Source: Planctomycetota bacterium
GTDB lineage: Bacteria > Planctomycetota > Planctomycetia > Gemmatales > Gemmataceae
NCBI GenBank assembly: GCA_021413735.1
Contig: JAIOPV010000057.1
Location: 1-64,000 of the forward strand
Reading direction: 5' to 3'
DNA length: 64,000 nt
A program made the translations under genes and the position numbers. Below are positions 18,131 through 53,182 of the stretch, piece after piece. The notes under the pieces were generated by a model. That model saw only the letters and a program-made list of their open reading frames with translations, made no database searches and was not told the DNA's origin. Within the stretch, counting starts at the first letter, position 1, and each line of letters begins with the position of its first letter.

Positions 18131-18145
18131 GGTATCTCTTTTGTC

Positions 18146-18196
18146 AAGCCGCTTACGGCTTCGCAACCAGTATGCCTGCGAAGCCGCAAGCGGCTT
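18146..18196. repeat. Inverted repeat, family C-like copy, at the DUF1553/DUF1501 junction
   Basis: Arms AAGCCGCTTACGGCTTCGCA (18146-18165) and its complement (18177-18196) differ by one base, with an 11-base centre. Each arm is itself a small hairpin (AGCCGC/GCGGCT type). The stop codon of the DUF1553 gene (18153-18155 on the minus strand) lies within it. The last 15 or so codons of that gene are read from the element. Confidence 0.85.
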
Positions 18197-21100
18197 TAAA
18201 CTTACACGTCGCGACGTCGACATCCGACGCTACGCCCCGTGGCTTCGACTCACCGACCCGGACCACCTTTTGCGCAGCAACGGGATCAGCCTCGAATAGC
18301 GCCCGTTGATTGTGGAGTGCGGCTGTGACGAGGCGAATCTCTTCTCGCTCGGGCAGTCGCGATAACACCGTGCGATACAGAAACGTGATGCGTTCCCTGG
18401 TGCTCGGGCCACCTTCCGCGATTGTGCGTTCTGCGAGTGCCCGCGCTGCCTCGAAGTGCTGCACATCGTTGAGCAATTGCAGTGCTTGGAGCGGCGTGTT
18501 CGTGCGGTCGCGGACGGCACACAACTGCTCGCGATTTGTGGCGTCGAAGTTCGTCAGGAACGGGGCAGGGGCCGTCCGCTTGATGAACACGTAGAGACTC
18601 CGCCGATACAGTGCCGCGCCGTGATCTTGGAGGTAGTAGCGAGTGTTGCTGTCGCCGTAGCCGATCGGTTCCCAGATGTTCGGCGGTTGATACGGATTGA
18701 CACCGCGACCGCCCAACTCGAAGTTCATCAGGCCGCTCGTGAAGAGGGCGTTGTCGCGAAGTTGCTCCGCATCGAGTCGGAAACGCGGACCACGCGACAG
18801 CAGCCGATTATCGTGATCCTTCGCACGATCCGCAGGTGATTGCCTGGCATCGCGGCGGAACGCTTCCGACATCACTAGCATCTTCACGAAACGCTTGGTA
18901 TCCCAGCTGCTCTCGCGATACTCAGAGGCGAGCCAATCGAGCAATTCGGGATGGCTTGGCGGTTCGCCCTGTGAGCCAAAGTCGCTGCTCGTTCGCACTA
19001 AACCCATGCCGAAGAACTGCTGCCAGAGTCGGTTCACCGCGACCCGAGCCGTCAGCGGATTTTCCGGGCTAACGATCCACTGTGCGAGGTCGAGCCGCGT
19101 CGGTCGCACGCCGGGTTTCGTCTTCAGTGGCGGCAGAGCCGCGGGAACGCCCGGCAGCACTTTGTCGCCGGCTTTGTCGTACTGACCGCGAAGCATCACG
19201 AACGCATCACGCGGCACGTCAAGATCGCGGAAGACCATCGTCCCTGGAATGGCGTCGGCAGCCGCATAGTGATCGGCTCGGGCTTTCTCCCAGACAAGTT
19301 GTGCCGCTGCGAGTTCATCTGTCACGGGTCTCGCCACGAATGCGAGATAAAACGCACGCAGTTTCGCGACAGCCTCGGGTGTGGGCTTCTTGTCGGGGCC
19401 ACCGACAACGACCGCGTTCAACTCACCGGGCAGTTCCGGCGGTGCCTTGCCGCCAAGCCCATGCCACCACACCTTGAACGACGCCAACGGATCAGTCGCG
19501 GGAGCCAATTCGCCTGTGAAAGTGGCCGCGTCCCAGAATGCCACGCCTCCGTATTCTTGGAGGCCGACCGACGTGATGAGTTGCCCTTCCTTCAAGCCGA
19601 GATCAGCCGTGCTGACGCTCAGTTTCGCCCACTGACCAGGAGCGGGAAGTGCTCCATGTCGCGTGCCAAGGCCACCGCCGCCATAAGGATTAGTGGCGCT
19701 TGGCTCCGCACCCCACCACATCTTCTTCGCGCCGCTGATTTGCACCGCGACCGCACGCGGCGGACTGTGCGGATCAAGTCGCACCCACACCTCGAAGGTG
19801 CCGTTCGCGGGAACGACGATCGGACGCAGTTTCGGCTGGAACGAATCCTCGTGAAAGAACGAGTTCGATTGTCGCAAAACCCGCCGCCCCGACTTCGCCC
19901 CGAACGCGGGATCAGCGACCCAATTCGCGGCGTTGCGTGTCGTGTTGCGATTCGTTGAGCCGAGCGGGAAGGTGTCGTCGAACAAGATATCTGTCACCGC
20001 TCGACGTTCGGGAACTGTCTTCGCGTCGGCGGGATCGGCGTACTCCGCTGCGAGTGCGGCGAGTTCGAGGCGTTTGCGGGCGTCGGTCTCGGCTTTCGCG
20101 GCTGCTTCGAGCGTCGCTTTCTGCACGGCCGAAGGCAGTTTGACGAATGGGCCGGTCGTGCTGATGTTGCTGTCTAACGCGGGATCGGCCGAACTGTAGA
20201 AGAACGAGTACAGCGAATAAAACTCCTTGGCTGAGATCGGATCGAACTTGTGGTCGTGGCACACAGCACACCCCGCCGTGAGGCCGAGCCAGGCCTGTAC
20301 TGTCGTACTCGTGCGATCCACGGCGTTGCGATACAGCCACTCCACGTCGATCGACCCGCCTTCGCCCGTGGTCACGTTGCAGCGGTTGAAGCCGGTCGCG
20401 GCCAGTTGATCCGGCGTCGGGTTCGGCAGCAGATCACCTGCGAGTTGCCACAGCGTGAACTTGTCGAACGGCAAATTCTCGTTGAACGCCTTTACCACCC
20501 AGTCGCGGTACGCCCACATCTGGCGCTCGTTGTCGAGGTGCAGCCCGTGCGTGTCGGCGTAGCGTGCGATGTCGAGCCAGTGCCGGGCCATCTCTTCGCC
20601 AAAGCGTGAACTCGCGAGGTAGCGGTCCACCATCTTTTCGTAGGCGTTTGGCGACTTGTCCGCGAGGTATTCATCGACTTCCTTGATGCTCGGTGGCAAT
20701 CCCGTCAGCGCGAATGACACTCGACGAATGAGCGTTTCGTGGTTGGCTTCTGGGGTCGGTTGCAGACCTGCCCGGTTGAGTTTAGCGAGGACGAAGGCGT
20801 CGATGACGGCCGAATGGCGGTTCCCCGTCTGCAACGCTGGTCGTGTGATCGGCTCGAAACTCCAGTGCTTCTGATACTTCGCCCCCTGTTCGATCCACAG
20901 CCGAAGCGTTTCCTTTTGGGCTGCGGTCAGCTTCTTGTTCGAGTCGGCGGGTGGCATCTGAAGGTCAGCATCGGCAGACGTGATTCGTGCCCACACTTCG
21001 CTGTGCTTCAGATCTCCGGGCTTGATCGCCGCTTCTCCCTTGCGTTGTTCAAACGCGCCCTCGGGCGTATCGAGCCGCAGTTTCGCCTTGCGTGCCTTCG

Positions 21101-47332: not shown

Positions 47333-47734
47333 ATGACCCCAAGCCGGCTGCTTCTGCTGTTCCTTGTACTGCTCCAATCGGGGTTGGCGGCAGGGCACGC
47401 GCACGATCACGTCTGCTCTGCGAACCGTGAATTCCACCCAGATAGCCCACACGTTCACGCTCACCAACTGCTTGATTTCCTGGCACTGGATACGGACGAC
47501 CAACGCAGCGAAGACAGCGAGGAGCACGAGTCTGATGCGTTCGAAGTGTCGGCCCTCACAACCCCAGGGCCACAATCGAGCCCCGAAGTCACCGCCGCCG
47601 ATTTGCCTGAAATCACGGTTCCCGGAACCGTCGCGGCTTCCACTGTCGCAGCCCCGTTTCTGATTGGACTGCCCCCTTCCATCGCTGGTCCGCCTCGACC
47701 GCTCTACCTCACTTTCTGCAACTTCCGGAATTGA
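47333..47734 (+). CDS. Small secreted His/Asp-rich protein at the head of the RND efflux locus
   Basis: A 133-residue protein with a signal peptide (MTPSRLLLLFLVLLQSGLAA) followed by GHAHDHVCSANREFH and DSPHVHAHQLLDFL, giving six His within about 27 residues of the mature N-terminus, plus Asp/Glu-rich and Thr/Pro-rich stretches. The C-terminus contains GLPPSIAGPPRPLY. Small His-rich periplasmic proteins are common at the front of czc/cus-like operons, where they may chelate the metal; that role is inferred from position and composition. It lies 136 bases ahead of the adaptor gene. No family name is recognised. Confidence 0.7.
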   Translation: MTPSRLLLLFLVLLQSGLAAGHAHDHVCSANREFHPDSPHVHAHQLLDFLALDTDDQRSEDSEEHESDAFEVSALTTPGPQSSPEVTAADLPEITVPGTVAASTVAAPFLIGLPPSIAGPPRPLYLTFCNFRN

Positions 47735-47870: not shown

Positions 47871-49256
47871 ATGCGTTGGCGTTTGATCCTCCGCAGTCTG
47901 GCGATGCTTCTGCTCCTTGCGGGGCTCGGTGCCGGCGCGTGGACCCAGCGGCACCGCTGGGAGCAACCAGCCATTCCCGATGCTGCACCGCACACGGGCT
48001 CTCCACCTCCCGAGATTCTGAGTGTGAAGCTCAGCGATGAGGCCGTACAAGGGCTGGCACTCCGCAGCCAGGAAGCCAAGCTCGAAGACTATCCGCGAGT
48101 GATTGAAGTGCCCGGCGTCATCATCGACTCACCGGGCCGTTCGCCCCGTGCTGTGTCGTCGCCGGTTGCGGGGGTCATCACGCGAATTTTTGTTTCGCCT
48201 GGCGAAGCGATCCGCCCGGGCAGTGCGCTGTTCACAATCCAACTCGCGAGCGAGTTCGTCCAGAGCACGCAGACCGATCTGGCACGATTCGCGAAGGATC
48301 TGATTGCTGCCAACATTCGACGAGATCAAACGGCCAAGCTCGTCGCCGCGGGAACCAAGGCGGGAATCGAACTGGTCGAAGACGAGAATCAGGTTCGCCG
48401 GCTCACGACGCAGGTGGAAGGACATCGCCGACAGCTCGCGGTATTCGGCCTTGATGCGAAGGATGTGAAGCGTGCCGAAGCTGGCGACGCTGTGACCGAG
48501 ATCACGATCTCGGCTCCGCTCAGCGAAGTGACCGCCGGCGGGATGAGCCTCATTCCCAGCGACCCATCTGCGTTCGCGTACGAGCTTGAGTCGTTGGCGG
48601 TTGCGCCTGGGCAGGGGGTAACGGGTGGTCAACTCCTCGCACGCCTCGCGGATTATCGCGAACTGCTGATTGAAGGTCGCGCCTTCGAGACTGAGTCGTC
48701 CTTGGTTGCCGACGCCACGGGAGAAGGCAAGCCCGTCGGTGTGGACTTCCTCGAACCAGCGACCAAGAGCGGACCGGACGCTGAGTTGAAACTTGTGATT
48801 CGGTCGATCGGGAAAACGGACCCCGCGAGCCGCACGTTCCCGTTTTACGCGGCGCTTACGAACGACGCGAAGCCCTACGAACGCGGCGGGAAAACATATC
48901 TCGCGTGGCGCTACCGTGCGGGTCGGCAGGTGCGGTTGCGTGTTCCGATGGGAACCATCCCGAAAGTGTTCGTGCTGCCTGCTGCCGCAGTCGTGCGCGA
49001 AGGTGCGGATACTTACGTCTTCCGCCAGAACGGCGACACGTTCGCACGCAAGGCTGTCGTCATTGTCGCTGAGGATCGGTTGAACGTGGCCATCGCGCCC
49101 GGCAACGGAATCGAGGCTGGAGTGTACGTGCTGCGGAACAATGCGGCTGCCGTGAACCGTGCGTTGAAGGCTGTCCAGGCGCGTGGCTTCGGAGGCACCG
49201 GCGGCAAGAAGGGTCACTGGCACGCGGACGGTTCCTTCCACGAAACGGACGATTGA
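47871..49256 (+). CDS. RND efflux periplasmic adaptor (HlyD/CusB-like membrane fusion protein)
   Basis: A 461-residue protein; the ATG at 47871 has AAGGTG just upstream and begins a basic signal anchor (MRWRLILRSLAMLLLLAGLG). An ATG at 47847 is possible, but the much longer frame overlaps the previous gene and is rejected. The beta-barrel/lipoyl half (SSPVAGVITRIFVSPGEAIR) flanks an alpha-helical hairpin (about 130-220), then the barrel and membrane-proximal domain with VFVLPAAAVVREGADTYVFR. The extreme C-terminus has GKKGHWHADGSFHETDD, a His-rich tail that could sense or pass metal. It links the inner-membrane pump to an outer-membrane channel. The stop codon lies in the first of two palindromic repeats that precede the pump. 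Confidence 0.9.
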   Translation: MRWRLILRSLAMLLLLAGLGAGAWTQRHRWEQPAIPDAAPHTGSPPPEILSVKLSDEAVQGLALRSQEAKLEDYPRVIEVPGVIIDSPGRSPRAVSSPVAGVITRIFVSPGEAIRPGSALFTIQLASEFVQSTQTDLARFAKDLIAANIRRDQTAKLVAAGTKAGIELVEDENQVRRLTTQVEGHRRQLAVFGLDAKDVKRAEAGDAVTEITISAPLSEVTAGGMSLIPSDPSAFAYELESLAVAPGQGVTGGQLLARLADYRELLIEGRAFETESSLVADATGEGKPVGVDFLEPATKSGPDAELKLVIRSIGKTDPASRTFPFYAALTNDAKPYERGGKTYLAWRYRAGRQVRLRVPMGTIPKVFVLPAAAVVREGADTYVFRQNGDTFARKAVVIVAEDRLNVAIAPGNGIEAGVYVLRNNAAAVNRALKAVQARGFGGTGGKKGHWHADGSFHETDD

Positions 49257-49328
49257 ATGAGAACGTGACCTATCGCGTTTTCATTCACCGAACCGAATGA
49301 GAACGTGACCTGTCGCGTTTTCATTCAC
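49255..49328 (+). promoter_or_regulatory. Two tandem 34-base palindromic repeats between adaptor and pump genes
   Basis: Copies at 49255-49288 and 49295-49328 differ at one base (A/G) and are separated by 6 bases. Each has GAATGAGAACG and CGTTTTCATTC as a stem (11 bp in RNA with one G-U pair) around a 10-base loop. The second copy abuts the GGGGTGAG ribosome-binding region of the pump gene. They could form mRNA hairpins controlling pump translation or be protein-binding operators. Confidence 0.7.
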
Positions 49329-49343
49329 GGGGTGAGAACAACG

Positions 49344-52300
49344 ATGCTCGATTCCGTCATTCGTGCGGCACTGCGTTACCGGGTCCTTGTGGTCCTTGGT
49401 GCGCTCACCGTCATGCTGTACGGGACGTACCTCGCGACAACGTTGCCGATCGACGTGCTGCCTCCATTGGATCGGCCGCGTGTGGTGTTACTCGTCGAGT
49501 GTACTGGCATGGCTTCGGAGGAAGTTGAGGCTCGCGTTGCTCACCCCATCGAAACGGCAATCCTTGGAGCGAACGGCGTCGAGGCTGTGCGTGGGCAATG
49601 CACAGCGGGGTTGGCGGTCATCTATGCCGAGTTCGATTGGGATTTCGAGATTCGCGCCGCCCGGCAAACCGTGCAGGAGCGGCTCGCGACTGTCTTGCCT
49701 CAGCTGCCTCCCGGAATTCGCCCGCAGATGATGCCGACGAGTTCGATCATGGGGCAGATCATGCAAGTCGGGGTCACGTCGAAGGACGGCACAACGAAAC
49801 CGATGGAACTCGGCACGATCGTAAACTGGGTCATTCGCCCGCGATTGCTGAAGATTCCCGGCGTGGCGGAGGTCATTGTTCTGGGCGGTGAGAAGAAGCA
49901 GTATCAGGTGTTGCTCAACCCCGACGCCCTGCGGAAATACGAGGTGACGGTGCCCGAAGTCGAGGCCGCGTTGAAGGCGAGCAACCTCAACACGACGGGC
50001 GGGTTTGACATTCGCGGTGATGTCGAGCGACCGATTCGCGTGCTCGCACAACTCGGCCCCGACCCAGCGAAAGTGGTCGCAGATCTTCTTCTCGTGGTGG
50101 TGAAGCCTGCGCCAGCAATCCCGCACGAACACGAAGAAGGCAAGGCAGGCTCGTTGATTGCCTCAGCAGGCACGGCACGCCCGATTCTGTTACATCAGGT
50201 TGCGCGAGTAGTCGAAGGGCCGGAACTGAAGCGGGGCGACGCGAGTGTTGATGGCTTCCCTGGTGTGGTCATTACAGTGGTGAAGCAACCGCACGCTGAC
50301 ACGAGAGCGGTCACTGCGCAGGTTCACGCGGCGATTCGGGAGTTGGAGCCAACGTTCCCCAAAGATGTGGTCGTGAATCACGAGTTGTTTCAGCTCAAGA
50401 ACTTCATTGACCGAGCCGTTTACAATGTCGGCGAAGCGCTTGTCGTGGGTGCTGGTCTTGTGCTGATTGTCCTCACATTGTTCCTGATGAATGTGCGGAC
50501 CACGTTCATTTCGCTGACGGCGATACCACTTTCACTCGCAGTCACGGCGATCGTCTTCAAGCTGATCGGACACATCACTGGAACCGAGCTTTCGATCAAT
50601 GTGATGACGCTCGGCGGCATTGCCGTTGCGATGGGTGAGTTGGTGGATGATGCCATCGTGGACGTCGAGAACATCTTTCGCCGCCTTCGAGAGAACAATG
50701 CGAAGGCAGAAGGCGGAAGACTAAATCCTCTGCGTGTCGTGTACGAGGCGAGCCGTGAAATTCGCTCGGCGATCGTGTTCGGCACTCTTGTTGTCGTGCT
50801 CGTTTTCCTGCCGTTGTTCGCACTTTCTGGCGTTGAGGGTCGGCTCTTTGCGACACTCGGACTCGCCTACATCGTATCGATTCTCGCGTCGCTGCTCGTG
50901 TCGGTCACTGTTACACCTGTCGCCGCGTATTACCTGCTCGCGAACTCTCGGGCGGTTCACGCTGAACGCGACGGACCACTGCTCCGATTGCTCAAAATCC
51001 TGGCGCGTCCCCTGATTCGTTTCAGCATGAAGCATCCCGTGCTGCTGCTGTTTCTGACCTGGGCTGCGGTCGGTGTCGCGGGCTGGCAGATGTCGCAACT
51101 CGGGGCAGACTTCCTTCCGCCGTTCGACGAAGGCAGCGTACAAGTGAACGTCAGCTTGCCAACAGGCTCATCGTTGGAAGCCATGAATAACGTGTGCCGG
51201 ATGATTGACACGCGACTTGCTGTCCTTCAGAAATCGAAGGAGAAGGCGACCAACCTGGTTCTCCATTTCTCGCGGCGAGCTGGACGTGCGGAGCGCGACG
51301 AACACGCCGAGCCCGTGAACCGCGCCGAGTACATTCTCAGCATGAACCCGGAATCCGGGTTGCCGCGACAGGAGGCCATTAAGCGGATTCTCGCGGACTT
51401 GAAAGAAGCCGCTCCGGGGGCGGATGTCGAAGCCGAGCAACCTCTCGCACACATGATTTCGCACATGGTTTCAGGTGTGTACGCACAGGTCGCGATCAAG
51501 ATTTACGGGGATGATCTCGATGTGCTGCGGCGAGAAGCAGAGCGAGTGAAAACGACCATCAGCAGCATTCCGGGAGTGACGCCGCCGGTGATCGAGATGC
51601 AGCAGGCGACCGGCGAGGTTCACATTCGGTTGCGGCCCGCTGATCTGGCATACCACGGACTGACTCGCGACGAAGTGGCGTCCGTGGTGAAGACCGCACT
51701 ACAAGGTGAAGAGGTTTCGCAGGTGATCGAGGGACAACGGCGATTCGACCTCATCGTAAGGCTTGACGATCAGTTCAGGACCGACATGCCCAGGCTTGGG
51801 AAGCTACGAATCGAACGCATCGGGCGACCGCCGGTGCTTCTCGGCGAAGTGGCCGATATTGGCGACAGCGTGGGACCGAATGCGGTGAACCGCGAGAACG
51901 TTCGTCGTCGAATCATCATTCGCTGCAACGTTCAAGGCCGCGATTTGGCATCGGTTGTCCAGGACATTCAGAAGCAAGTCACGGCTCAGGTTGTGCCGAG
52001 CATGCCGCCGGGATACACGGTCGATTACGGCGGGCAGTTCGAGAGCCAACAGCGGGCAACACGCTTGATTTCCATCCTGGCTCTGCTCTCGGTCGTGGGA
52101 ATGTTCGCCGTGCTGATGGTGCTGTTCCCATCGGTGCGGATCGTGTTGCAAATTTTGAACGCGCTTCCGACTGCCTTCATCGGTGGCGTGTTGGCGCTTG
52201 TGCTGACGAACCAAACGCTAACGGTGGCGAGTCTGGTTGGGTTCATCTCACTTGGTGGTATCGCGGTTCGCAATGGCATCTTGCTCGTCTCTCACTACAT

Positions 52301-52658
52301 GCACTTGATGCGTGAAGAAGGCCAGAAGTTCACAGATGAGATGGTGCTGCGGGGCAGCCTGGAGCGGTTGGCGCCTGTGTTGATGACTGCGCTCACGGCG
52401 GGTATCGCCCTCGTGCCGCTCGTCCTCGATGGACTGAAGCCGGGGCGTGAGATTCTCTACCCCGTGGCGACGGTGATTCTTGGCGGGCTGCTCACCTCGA
52501 CGTTCTGCGAGTTCTTGATTCACCCTGGGCTGTTCTGGCGTTTCAGCGGTCGGGATGCTGAACGCCTTGCACAGTTCGGGTTGTCTGACGATCCACTGGC
52601 GGATGCACCGCGAGCGGACACCAACGCGACCGATGTTCGGTCGCGTTCTGAAGTCTGA
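49344..52658 (+). CDS. Heavy-metal efflux (HME) RND transporter, CzcA/CusA family
   Basis: A 1104-residue inner-membrane pump from the ATG at 49344 with GGTGAG upstream. TM1 (VLVVLGALTVMLYGTYLATT) is followed by TLPIDVLPPLDRPRV and the HME motif MASEEVEARVAHPIE. The proton-relay region in TM4 reads AMGELVDDAIVDVEN (about residues 427-441), a variant of the CzcA/CusA sequence. The second half has ALTAGIALVPLVLDGLKPGREILYPVATV. The docking loops are between TM1-2 and TM7-8. The variant does not match the classical Zn/Co or Cu/Ag patterns, so the metal is not assigned. An internal HEHEE stretch near residue 256 could bind metal. Neighbouring genes give the adaptor and His-rich partners; no outer-membrane channel gene is present. 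Confidence 0.93.
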   Translation: MLDSVIRAALRYRVLVVLGALTVMLYGTYLATTLPIDVLPPLDRPRVVLLVECTGMASEEVEARVAHPIETAILGANGVEAVRGQCTAGLAVIYAEFDWDFEIRAARQTVQERLATVLPQLPPGIRPQMMPTSSIMGQIMQVGVTSKDGTTKPMELGTIVNWVIRPRLLKIPGVAEVIVLGGEKKQYQVLLNPDALRKYEVTVPEVEAALKASNLNTTGGFDIRGDVERPIRVLAQLGPDPAKVVADLLLVVVKPAPAIPHEHEEGKAGSLIASAGTARPILLHQVARVVEGPELKRGDASVDGFPGVVITVVKQPHADTRAVTAQVHAAIRELEPTFPKDVVVNHELFQLKNFIDRAVYNVGEALVVGAGLVLIVLTLFLMNVRTTFISLTAIPLSLAVTAIVFKLIGHITGTELSINVMTLGGIAVAMGELVDDAIVDVENIFRRLRENNAKAEGGRLNPLRVVYEASREIRSAIVFGTLVVVLVFLPLFALSGVEGRLFATLGLAYIVSILASLLVSVTVTPVAAYYLLANSRAVHAERDGPLLRLLKILARPLIRFSMKHPVLLLFLTWAAVGVAGWQMSQLGADFLPPFDEGSVQVNVSLPTGSSLEAMNNVCRMIDTRLAVLQKSKEKATNLVLHFSRRAGRAERDEHAEPVNRAEYILSMNPESGLPRQEAIKRILADLKEAAPGADVEAEQPLAHMISHMVSGVYAQVAIKIYGDDLDVLRREAERVKTTISSIPGVTPPVIEMQQATGEVHIRLRPADLAYHGLTRDEVASVVKTALQGEEVSQVIEGQRRFDLIVRLDDQFRTDMPRLGKLRIERIGRPPVLLGEVADIGDSVGPNAVNRENVRRRIIIRCNVQGRDLASVVQDIQKQVTAQVVPSMPPGYTVDYGGQFESQQRATRLISILALLSVVGMFAVLMVLFPSVRIVLQILNALPTAFIGGVLALVLTNQTLTVASLVGFISLGGIAVRNGILLVSHYMHLMREEGQKFTDEMVLRGSLERLAPVLMTALTAGIALVPLVLDGLKPGREILYPVATVILGGLLTSTFCEFLIHPGLFWRFSGRDAERLAQFGLSDDPLADAPRADTNATDVRSRSEV

Positions 52659-52681: not shown

Positions 52682-53182
52682 ATGAGTGCGAAGATGTTAG
52701 CCGCGACCATTCTTGGGTTCGGCCTGATCTGGGCGACCGGATGCGACAGCAAAAAAGACGCGACACAGAAGGCTGCTGAGGAGAAGAAACCCAAGGAAGC
52801 CAAGGAAGACAAGCACGACGATCACGGTCCTGGTCCGCACAAGGGGGTGATCTTCGATTGCGGGAAGTGGCACGTCGAGTTCAAGCCGGACCACGCAAAG
52901 AAGGAAGCAACCGTCTGGATTTACGGGCTGGATCAGAAGACTCCCACACCGATCAAGGCCGACAAGGTTCGGCTCGTGGTGTCGAACACAACCCCGAAGA
53001 TTGAGATCGACCTGCTGCCGACGGACAAGGGTGCTGACGGAGCAGCGCACACCTTCACCGGGAAGCACGACGGTTTCGGAGTTGAGAAGGAGTACAAGGG
53101 AACGGTGAGCTTCCAGGTCGATGGCAAGCCGTATAGCGAAGAGTTCTCGGAAGAACCCGAGAAGAAAGAAGAGAAGAAGTAA
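52682..53182 (+). CDS. Putative lipoprotein of the efflux locus
   Basis: A 166-residue protein with a lipobox (LIWATGC, Cys21) after MSAKMLAATILGFG, so it is probably anchored to a membrane. A Lys/Glu-rich linker leads to KHDDHGPGPHKGV, a His/Asp cluster that could bind metal. A small beta domain follows (WHVEFKPDHAKKEATVWIYG ... HTFTGKHDGFG) and a Lys/Glu-rich tail. It begins 23 bases after the RND pump gene, in the same transcript. Similar small proteins accompany RND metal efflux operons in planctomycetes; a periplasmic metal-delivery or sensing role is inferred, not shown. Confidence 0.75.
   Translation: MSAKMLAATILGFGLIWATGCDSKKDATQKAAEEKKPKEAKEDKHDDHGPGPHKGVIFDCGKWHVEFKPDHAKKEATVWIYGLDQKTPTPIKADKVRLVVSNTTPKIEIDLLPTDKGADGAAHTFTGKHDGFGVEKEYKGTVSFQVDGKPYSEEFSEEPEKKEEKK

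Follow-up and report, generated by a model that had tools for sequence, protein, structure and literature searches.

The DNA analysed here, referred to as the window, is a stretch of 64,000 nt from a Planctomycetota bacterium of the Gemmataceae (GCA_021413735.1, contig JAIOPV010000057.1, positions 1–64,000 of the forward strand), whose genome is available as a 9.8-Mb draft, an incomplete assembly. It carries a gene for an RND periplasmic adaptor followed by a gene for an RND pump (Table 1). The adaptor start, like all gene positions used in this study, was taken from a codon-usage gene finder written for the analysis and is therefore rough. The pump scored 679.2 bits against the CusA/CzcA family of NCBIfam (TIGR00914), slightly below the cut-off of 701.45, and by this sub-threshold family match it likely exports a heavy metal. 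Upstream of the adaptor lies a 133-aa open reading frame containing histidine (47333–47734), a candidate member of the efflux operon, and downstream of the pump lies a gene for a putative lipoprotein of 166 aa (52682–53182); a Pfam scan gave no match for either. Where single places have to be named, G000 denotes the genome containing the window and G008 its nearest relative, with C for contig and L for locus.

Table 1. Features of the adaptor–pump junction, in window coordinates
Feature	Position	Strand	Basis or remark
RND periplasmic adaptor gene (HlyD_3)	47871..49256	+	PF13437, E 4.7e-11
R1 copy 1	49255..49288	- (consensus strand)	covariance model 59.1 bits; fold; column alignment
Inserted DNA, approximate	49257..49335		net 78 nt longer than closest relative, about two 40-nt units; ends uncertain by a few bases
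R1 copy 2	49295..49328	- (consensus strand)	one difference from copy 1; fold; column alignment
Shine-Dalgarno-like GGGGTGA	49329..49335	+	in or at edge of inserted DNA; anti-SD duplex
RND pump gene (ACR_tran)	49344..52658	+	Pfam; best NCBIfam match CusA/CzcA

Between the two genes lie two palindromes of 34 nt, placed, as the original prediction had it, from the adaptor stop to the Shine-Dalgarno (SD) sequence of the pump and differing at one base. They are direct repeats, identical at 33 of 34 positions (97%) and spaced 40 nt start to start. The adaptor stop codon (TGA, 49254–49256) overlaps the start of copy 1, and copy 2 runs directly into the GGGGTGA sequence, which is separated from the pump ATG by 8 nt. 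A 33-nt pattern with up to three mismatches matched the window only at these two copies, and none of 100 shuffled controls contained two matches. Each copy was predicted to fold as RNA into a hairpin, of 15 bp for copy 1 (-19.2 kcal/mol, z = -7.9) and 14 bp for copy 2 (-18.6 kcal/mol, z = -5.2). The hairpin proposed originally was thus recovered, though its 11-bp stem was an underestimate, since G-U pairs lengthen it. Folded jointly, the two copies could alternatively form a single long hairpin (-51.2 kcal/mol for a folded stretch of 107 nt, z = -6.6). In the predicted fold, the SD sequence paired with the start region and not with the palindromes. The duplex of GGGGTGA with an anti-SD sequence was calculated at -10.9 kcal/mol; the pump sites of relatives gave -3.9 to -11.0 kcal/mol. 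Because both copies carry the same private variants, with a 40-nt period and a single difference, copy 2 most likely arose from copy 1 by duplication in place.

Both palindromes belong to a dispersed family, here called R1. A pair private to the window was considered, as an exact 12-mer was found at three places only, but a relaxed pattern then revealed the family. The third of these exact places (L003) was rejected as a copy, its sequence being unlike R1. A 13-nt half-site, with one mismatch allowed, occurred 180 times in the draft genome, compared with 12 occurrences of the reversed control. A covariance model built from 19 copies gave at least 138 genome matches, counting both strands, corresponding to at least 77 sites. 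Only 150 of the 6,540 initial candidates were scored in this search, and weak copies may therefore have escaped the count. Such a spread is largely what the original prediction had described as the mark of a repeat family, namely many copies in unrelated spots. Five sites (the window, C84, C93, C132 and C22) hold two or three copies spaced 40–41 nt. The consensus is approximately CAATTGGGTGRATGAGAACTCGRCAGGYCGCGTTCTCATYCAATTGG, and the window copies correspond to its minus strand. An Rfam search up to E 1 returned no match.

An alignment of 72 copies, which omits those with indels and part of the additional tandem copies, showed how the stem varies. The centre and inner arm were nearly constant. 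Columns 11/40 changed from A-T to G-C in 26 of the 72 copies, and columns 23/28 from G-C to A-T in 23. Changes on both sides with pairing kept were found at 8 of the 15 stem pairs. Such two-sided changes filled 64 cells, against 22.6 in shuffled alignments (none of 500 shuffles reached 64), and at most 8 when one arm was slid by 1–3 columns. As the paired changes keep the pairing, it is the hairpin, beyond mere sequence, that is kept in R1.

The distribution of the family is narrow. The covariance model, applied to 41 genomes (the source genome and 40 relatives), found R1 only in the source genome and at one place in G008. A pattern search allowing up to three mismatches in 95 genomes of the bacterial family gave 55 strand matches in the source genome, one in G008 and none in the other 93. 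The single G008 place follows a tRNA-like sequence, as read from the letters rather than by a tRNA search. One R1 copy used as query had no match in plasmid and phage collections, and the exact core pattern had none in GTDB contigs, although the source genome may be left out of both. A literature search turned up no description of the family, which does not prove that none exists. We regard R1 as a new, species-specific family of the REP/MITE-like type, ordinary in kind and unusual in its preference for places before start codons.

Comparison with relatives identified sites that lack the element. Seven congeners supplied eight orthologous pump loci. In these, 6–12 nt separate the last codon of the adaptor from the ATG of the pump, compared with 90 nt here, and none of the eight junctions contains R1. 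A joined query of 19 genes with R1 nearby yielded 18 with a clear G008 orthologue, and none of the 18 orthologous start regions contained R1; in G008 as a whole, one place was found with confidence. Lengths could be compared with G008 at 12 sites. Nine differed by 37–41 nt, one (L046) by 34 nt, and the two double-copy sites by 78 nt. At L104 and L085, G008 carries other sequence, so that these two do not count as cleanly empty, and some other of the 18 comparisons align poorly. R1 thus resembles a MITE in that it is mobile and non-autonomous and that relatives have the corresponding sites empty. One further insertion (L116, G000:C66:20377) lies at a pair of transketolase-like genes and appears to supply a new stop for the upstream gene; in the G008 counterpart, the two genes overlap at ATGCGTGA.

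The empty sites also indicate where the element enters. In 7 of 14 sites, the match to the empty site starts again exactly at column 41 of the model; in the other 7, the insertion point is blurred. The letters at resumption were CAAT, CAAA, CAAC (twice), CACC, CGAC and, at the window site, again CAAT. Since homology resumes at this fixed column, the data suggest that R1, in consensus orientation, entered immediately 5′ of a CRAY-like target already present there. Target duplication was not apparent, as the left and right flanks of a single copy resembled each other no more closely than did flanks taken from different copies or shuffled flanks. Measured on the empty site, the two flanks overlapped by -1 to 6 nt at 8 of the 14 sites, with values further below zero at the remaining 6.

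R1 sites are distributed unevenly with respect to genes. By setting, of the sites found (at least 77), 33 have divergent, 32 tandem and 4 convergent genes on their two sides, 5 were called inside genes and 3 are at locus ends. Eight of the 77 were dropped from placement (5 called inside genes and 6 at locus ends, 3 being both), leaving 69. Of these, 41 lie 10–50 nt upstream of a start codon, a zone accounting for 16.0% of the 59,536 background intergenic bases (p ≈ 3 × 10−16, binomial test). The background was 464 kb, consisting of the window and 20 stretches of 20 kb hand-picked from long contigs. Divergent regions were favoured (33/69 vs 29% of bases, p = 0.0009), and the deficit in convergent regions was not significant (4/69 vs 11.5% of bases, p = 0.09). 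Eighteen of the 69 sites lie within 50 nt of a stop codon. Target-like motifs were not enriched before starts (3.9–5.1 per kb at 10–50 nt vs 4.1–6.2 elsewhere), and the strand of the element was not associated with the sign of the local GC skew (28, 18, 19 and 12 sites). The 10–50 nt preference was equally strong in copies near the consensus (19/34) and in diverged copies (22/35), which fits both insertion bias and selection. If R1 were pure junk, its placement at start codons would still need one or the other.

A second palindrome family in the same genome, CGCCGCTTGCGGCGTAGC...GCTACGCCGCAAGCGGCG, is about 50 nt long and has a copy in the window at about 18143–18198. Of 27 palindromic matches, 2 at locus edges were dropped. 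Among the remaining 25, 24 are found no more than 33 nt past a stop codon; 13 are between convergent genes and none between divergent genes. These are probably terminator- or REP-like 3′ hairpins. Because the second family takes 3′ ends, the placement of R1 is a property of R1 and not of palindromes in this genome. G008 has a palindrome family of its own (TTTAGCCGCGACCC, 72 half-sites, L200–L229), mostly between tandem genes and near the upstream stop; one copy precedes an Hsp70-like gene, a place occupied by R1 in the species of the window. A third palindrome, GTCGGGATGCCGAC...GTCGGCATCCCGAC, with only five exact half-sites in the genome, was seen inside an R1 loop (L030, 98–184; G000:C195) and near R1 (L087, about 1814–1899; G000:C132).

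The genes next to R1 were varied in function. Of 51 neighbours, 40 were scanned with Pfam, the window pump being scanned separately. They include ribosomal protein L25, QueA, a translational GTPase, a class I tRNA synthetase (methionine type) and Rho, as well as an amino-acid kinase, D-Ala ligase, transketolase, polyprenyl synthetases and kinases. Several belong to families of unknown function, and others had no Pfam match. The original prediction had proposed looking for the same motif upstream of other metal genes; no metal-related family name occurred among the 40 scanned neighbours. The neighbours of R1 are not a regulon.

We consider it likely that the pair is a tandem of two R1 units, and that R1 itself is a mobile but non-autonomous palindrome, about 40 nt long, which multiplied recently in this planctomycete. 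Since the hairpin has spread to about 80 places, mostly before unrelated genes, the pair is best read as a recent insertion and not as a dedicated pump switch. A first unit would have landed in the short adaptor–pump junction, at a target overlapping the adaptor stop codon, and would then have been duplicated in place. The unit may have moved as a single-stranded hairpin handled by an HUH-type or similar enzyme. IS200/IS605 elements are handled by Y1 HUH enzymes, and R1 resembles elements so handled in its 40-nt unit, its pair-kept hairpin, its fixed insertion side and the absence of a visible target duplication. The draft genome has 11 Y1_Tnp genes, and the 34,885 bases around them, reaching out to about 1.5 kb, contained no R1 match; an association with RAYTs was rejected for this reason.

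Known small repeats offer partial parallels. REP elements tagged with GTAG or CGTC are described as palindromes of 20–40 nt that are extragenic, high in copy number and often species-specific; they are located 3′ of coding regions, where the neighbouring genes are unidirectional or convergent, and can give stop codons to flanking genes (BMC Genomics 2013, PMC3733652). The placement of the second family agrees with this account. R1 shares the short palindrome, the number of sites (at least 77) and the mostly extragenic location, with 5 sites called inside a gene. It differs from these REPs in lacking the GTAG/CGTC foot, the 72 copies being TTGG-like on one side and RTTG-like on the other strand. 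Its tandems are direct and not inverted, it lies before start codons, often between divergent genes, and its copies were not seen next to any Y1 transposase gene. In Planctomycetes and Acidobacteria, the hairpins associated with class 3 TnpA-Y1 can reach high copy number, are presumed to be moved by HUH enzymes, have a CnGA foot and flank a transposase gene (PMC6006769). R1 has no CnGA adjoining its stem on either strand and was not found flanking a transposase gene.

Correia repeat enclosed elements of Neisseria are small mobile inverted repeats, some of them 5′ of genes, which can be bound or cut by RNase III and can change neighbouring expression; a 105-bp form is mentioned, and the elements have promoters, a core that is conserved and, in some cases, an IHF site (PMC2649163). 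R1 is likewise a small mobile inverted repeat lying 5′ of genes, but is shorter than the Correia elements, each 40-nt unit containing a single 34-nt hairpin. REPs of E. coli that lie no more than 15 nt from a stop codon are reported to stall ribosomes (PMC12306157). The window hairpin, starting at the adaptor stop codon, is similar to these; R1 sites in general are unlike the stop-proximal REPs described there, a minority lying at stops (18/69) and most at starts.

A different reading is that R1 has been recruited genome-wide as a mobile 5′-leader hairpin, its start-proximal copies, including that of the pump, tuning or insulating translation or mRNA decay. The 41 of 69 sites lying 10–50 nt before starts and the stems kept by compensatory changes would fit such a role, as would the 3′ position of the second family, which makes position family-specific; insertion bias, however, would give the same placement. 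Within 60 nt of a gene, R1 showed no orientation bias (27 opposite, 23 same), and G-U exceeded A-C wobbles in the mRNA sense by only 15 to 8 (p = 0.21). R1 is, moreover, species-specific and precedes unrelated genes. We regard this reading as possible but doubtful.

Control confined to the metal pump is far less credible. Strong hairpins directly upstream of the SD sequence are what an operon-specific RNA element (an attenuator, a thermometer or a riboswitch-like structure) would look like, but the 8/8 orthologous junctions lacking R1, its presence before unrelated genes, the absence of an Rfam match up to E 1 and the predicted pairing of the SD sequence with the start region, not the palindromes, make such an element very improbable. 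Dedicated pump control, as originally predicted, is thus unsupported, since R1 precedes unrelated genes at 77 or more sites and is absent from the eight orthologous junctions; the hairpins before ribosome-binding sites, the other part of that prediction, stand. A dimeric repressor bound at two operators inside the operon, for which near-identical palindromes 40 nt (about four helical turns) apart would be suited, is highly unlikely, because the two arms change together in a way that keeps the hairpin and not one half-site sequence, R1 copies precede unrelated genes, and all eight copies of the orthologous operon lack R1.

Returning to the insertion of a mobile palindrome, its effect on the pump can be outlined. 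A start a few bases after an upstream stop usually means translational coupling. The insertion would have converted a near-overlapping, probably translationally coupled junction into an 87-nt leader with stable hairpins. The pump would then start from its own GGGGTGA, a site either kept or gained with the insertion, and the hairpin would perhaps slow ribosomes at the adaptor stop. Judged from the junction sequences, R1 probably uncoupled the pump from the adaptor, and pump translation may be lower after insertion. An effect of RNA folding on translation stays plausible, because R1 hairpins sit before ribosome-binding sites as a family-wide habit (41/69).

Bacterial small palindromic repeats are mostly known from 3′ ends. 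We tentatively suggest, as an idea with rather low odds, that the mechanism of R1 itself delivers hairpins to the leaders upstream of translation starts, for example via single-stranded DNA opened by transcription. Ribosome access to dozens of unrelated genes would thereby have been rewired in a single species, with the other palindrome family at 3′ ends. Small palindromic repeats that, like R1, lie before starts provide a test case for placement by mechanism versus selection, and a close relative with empty sites lets the effect of a hairpin before a ribosome-binding site be asked directly. They also carry a warning: a hairpin beside a ribosome-binding site in one genome need not regulate that gene.
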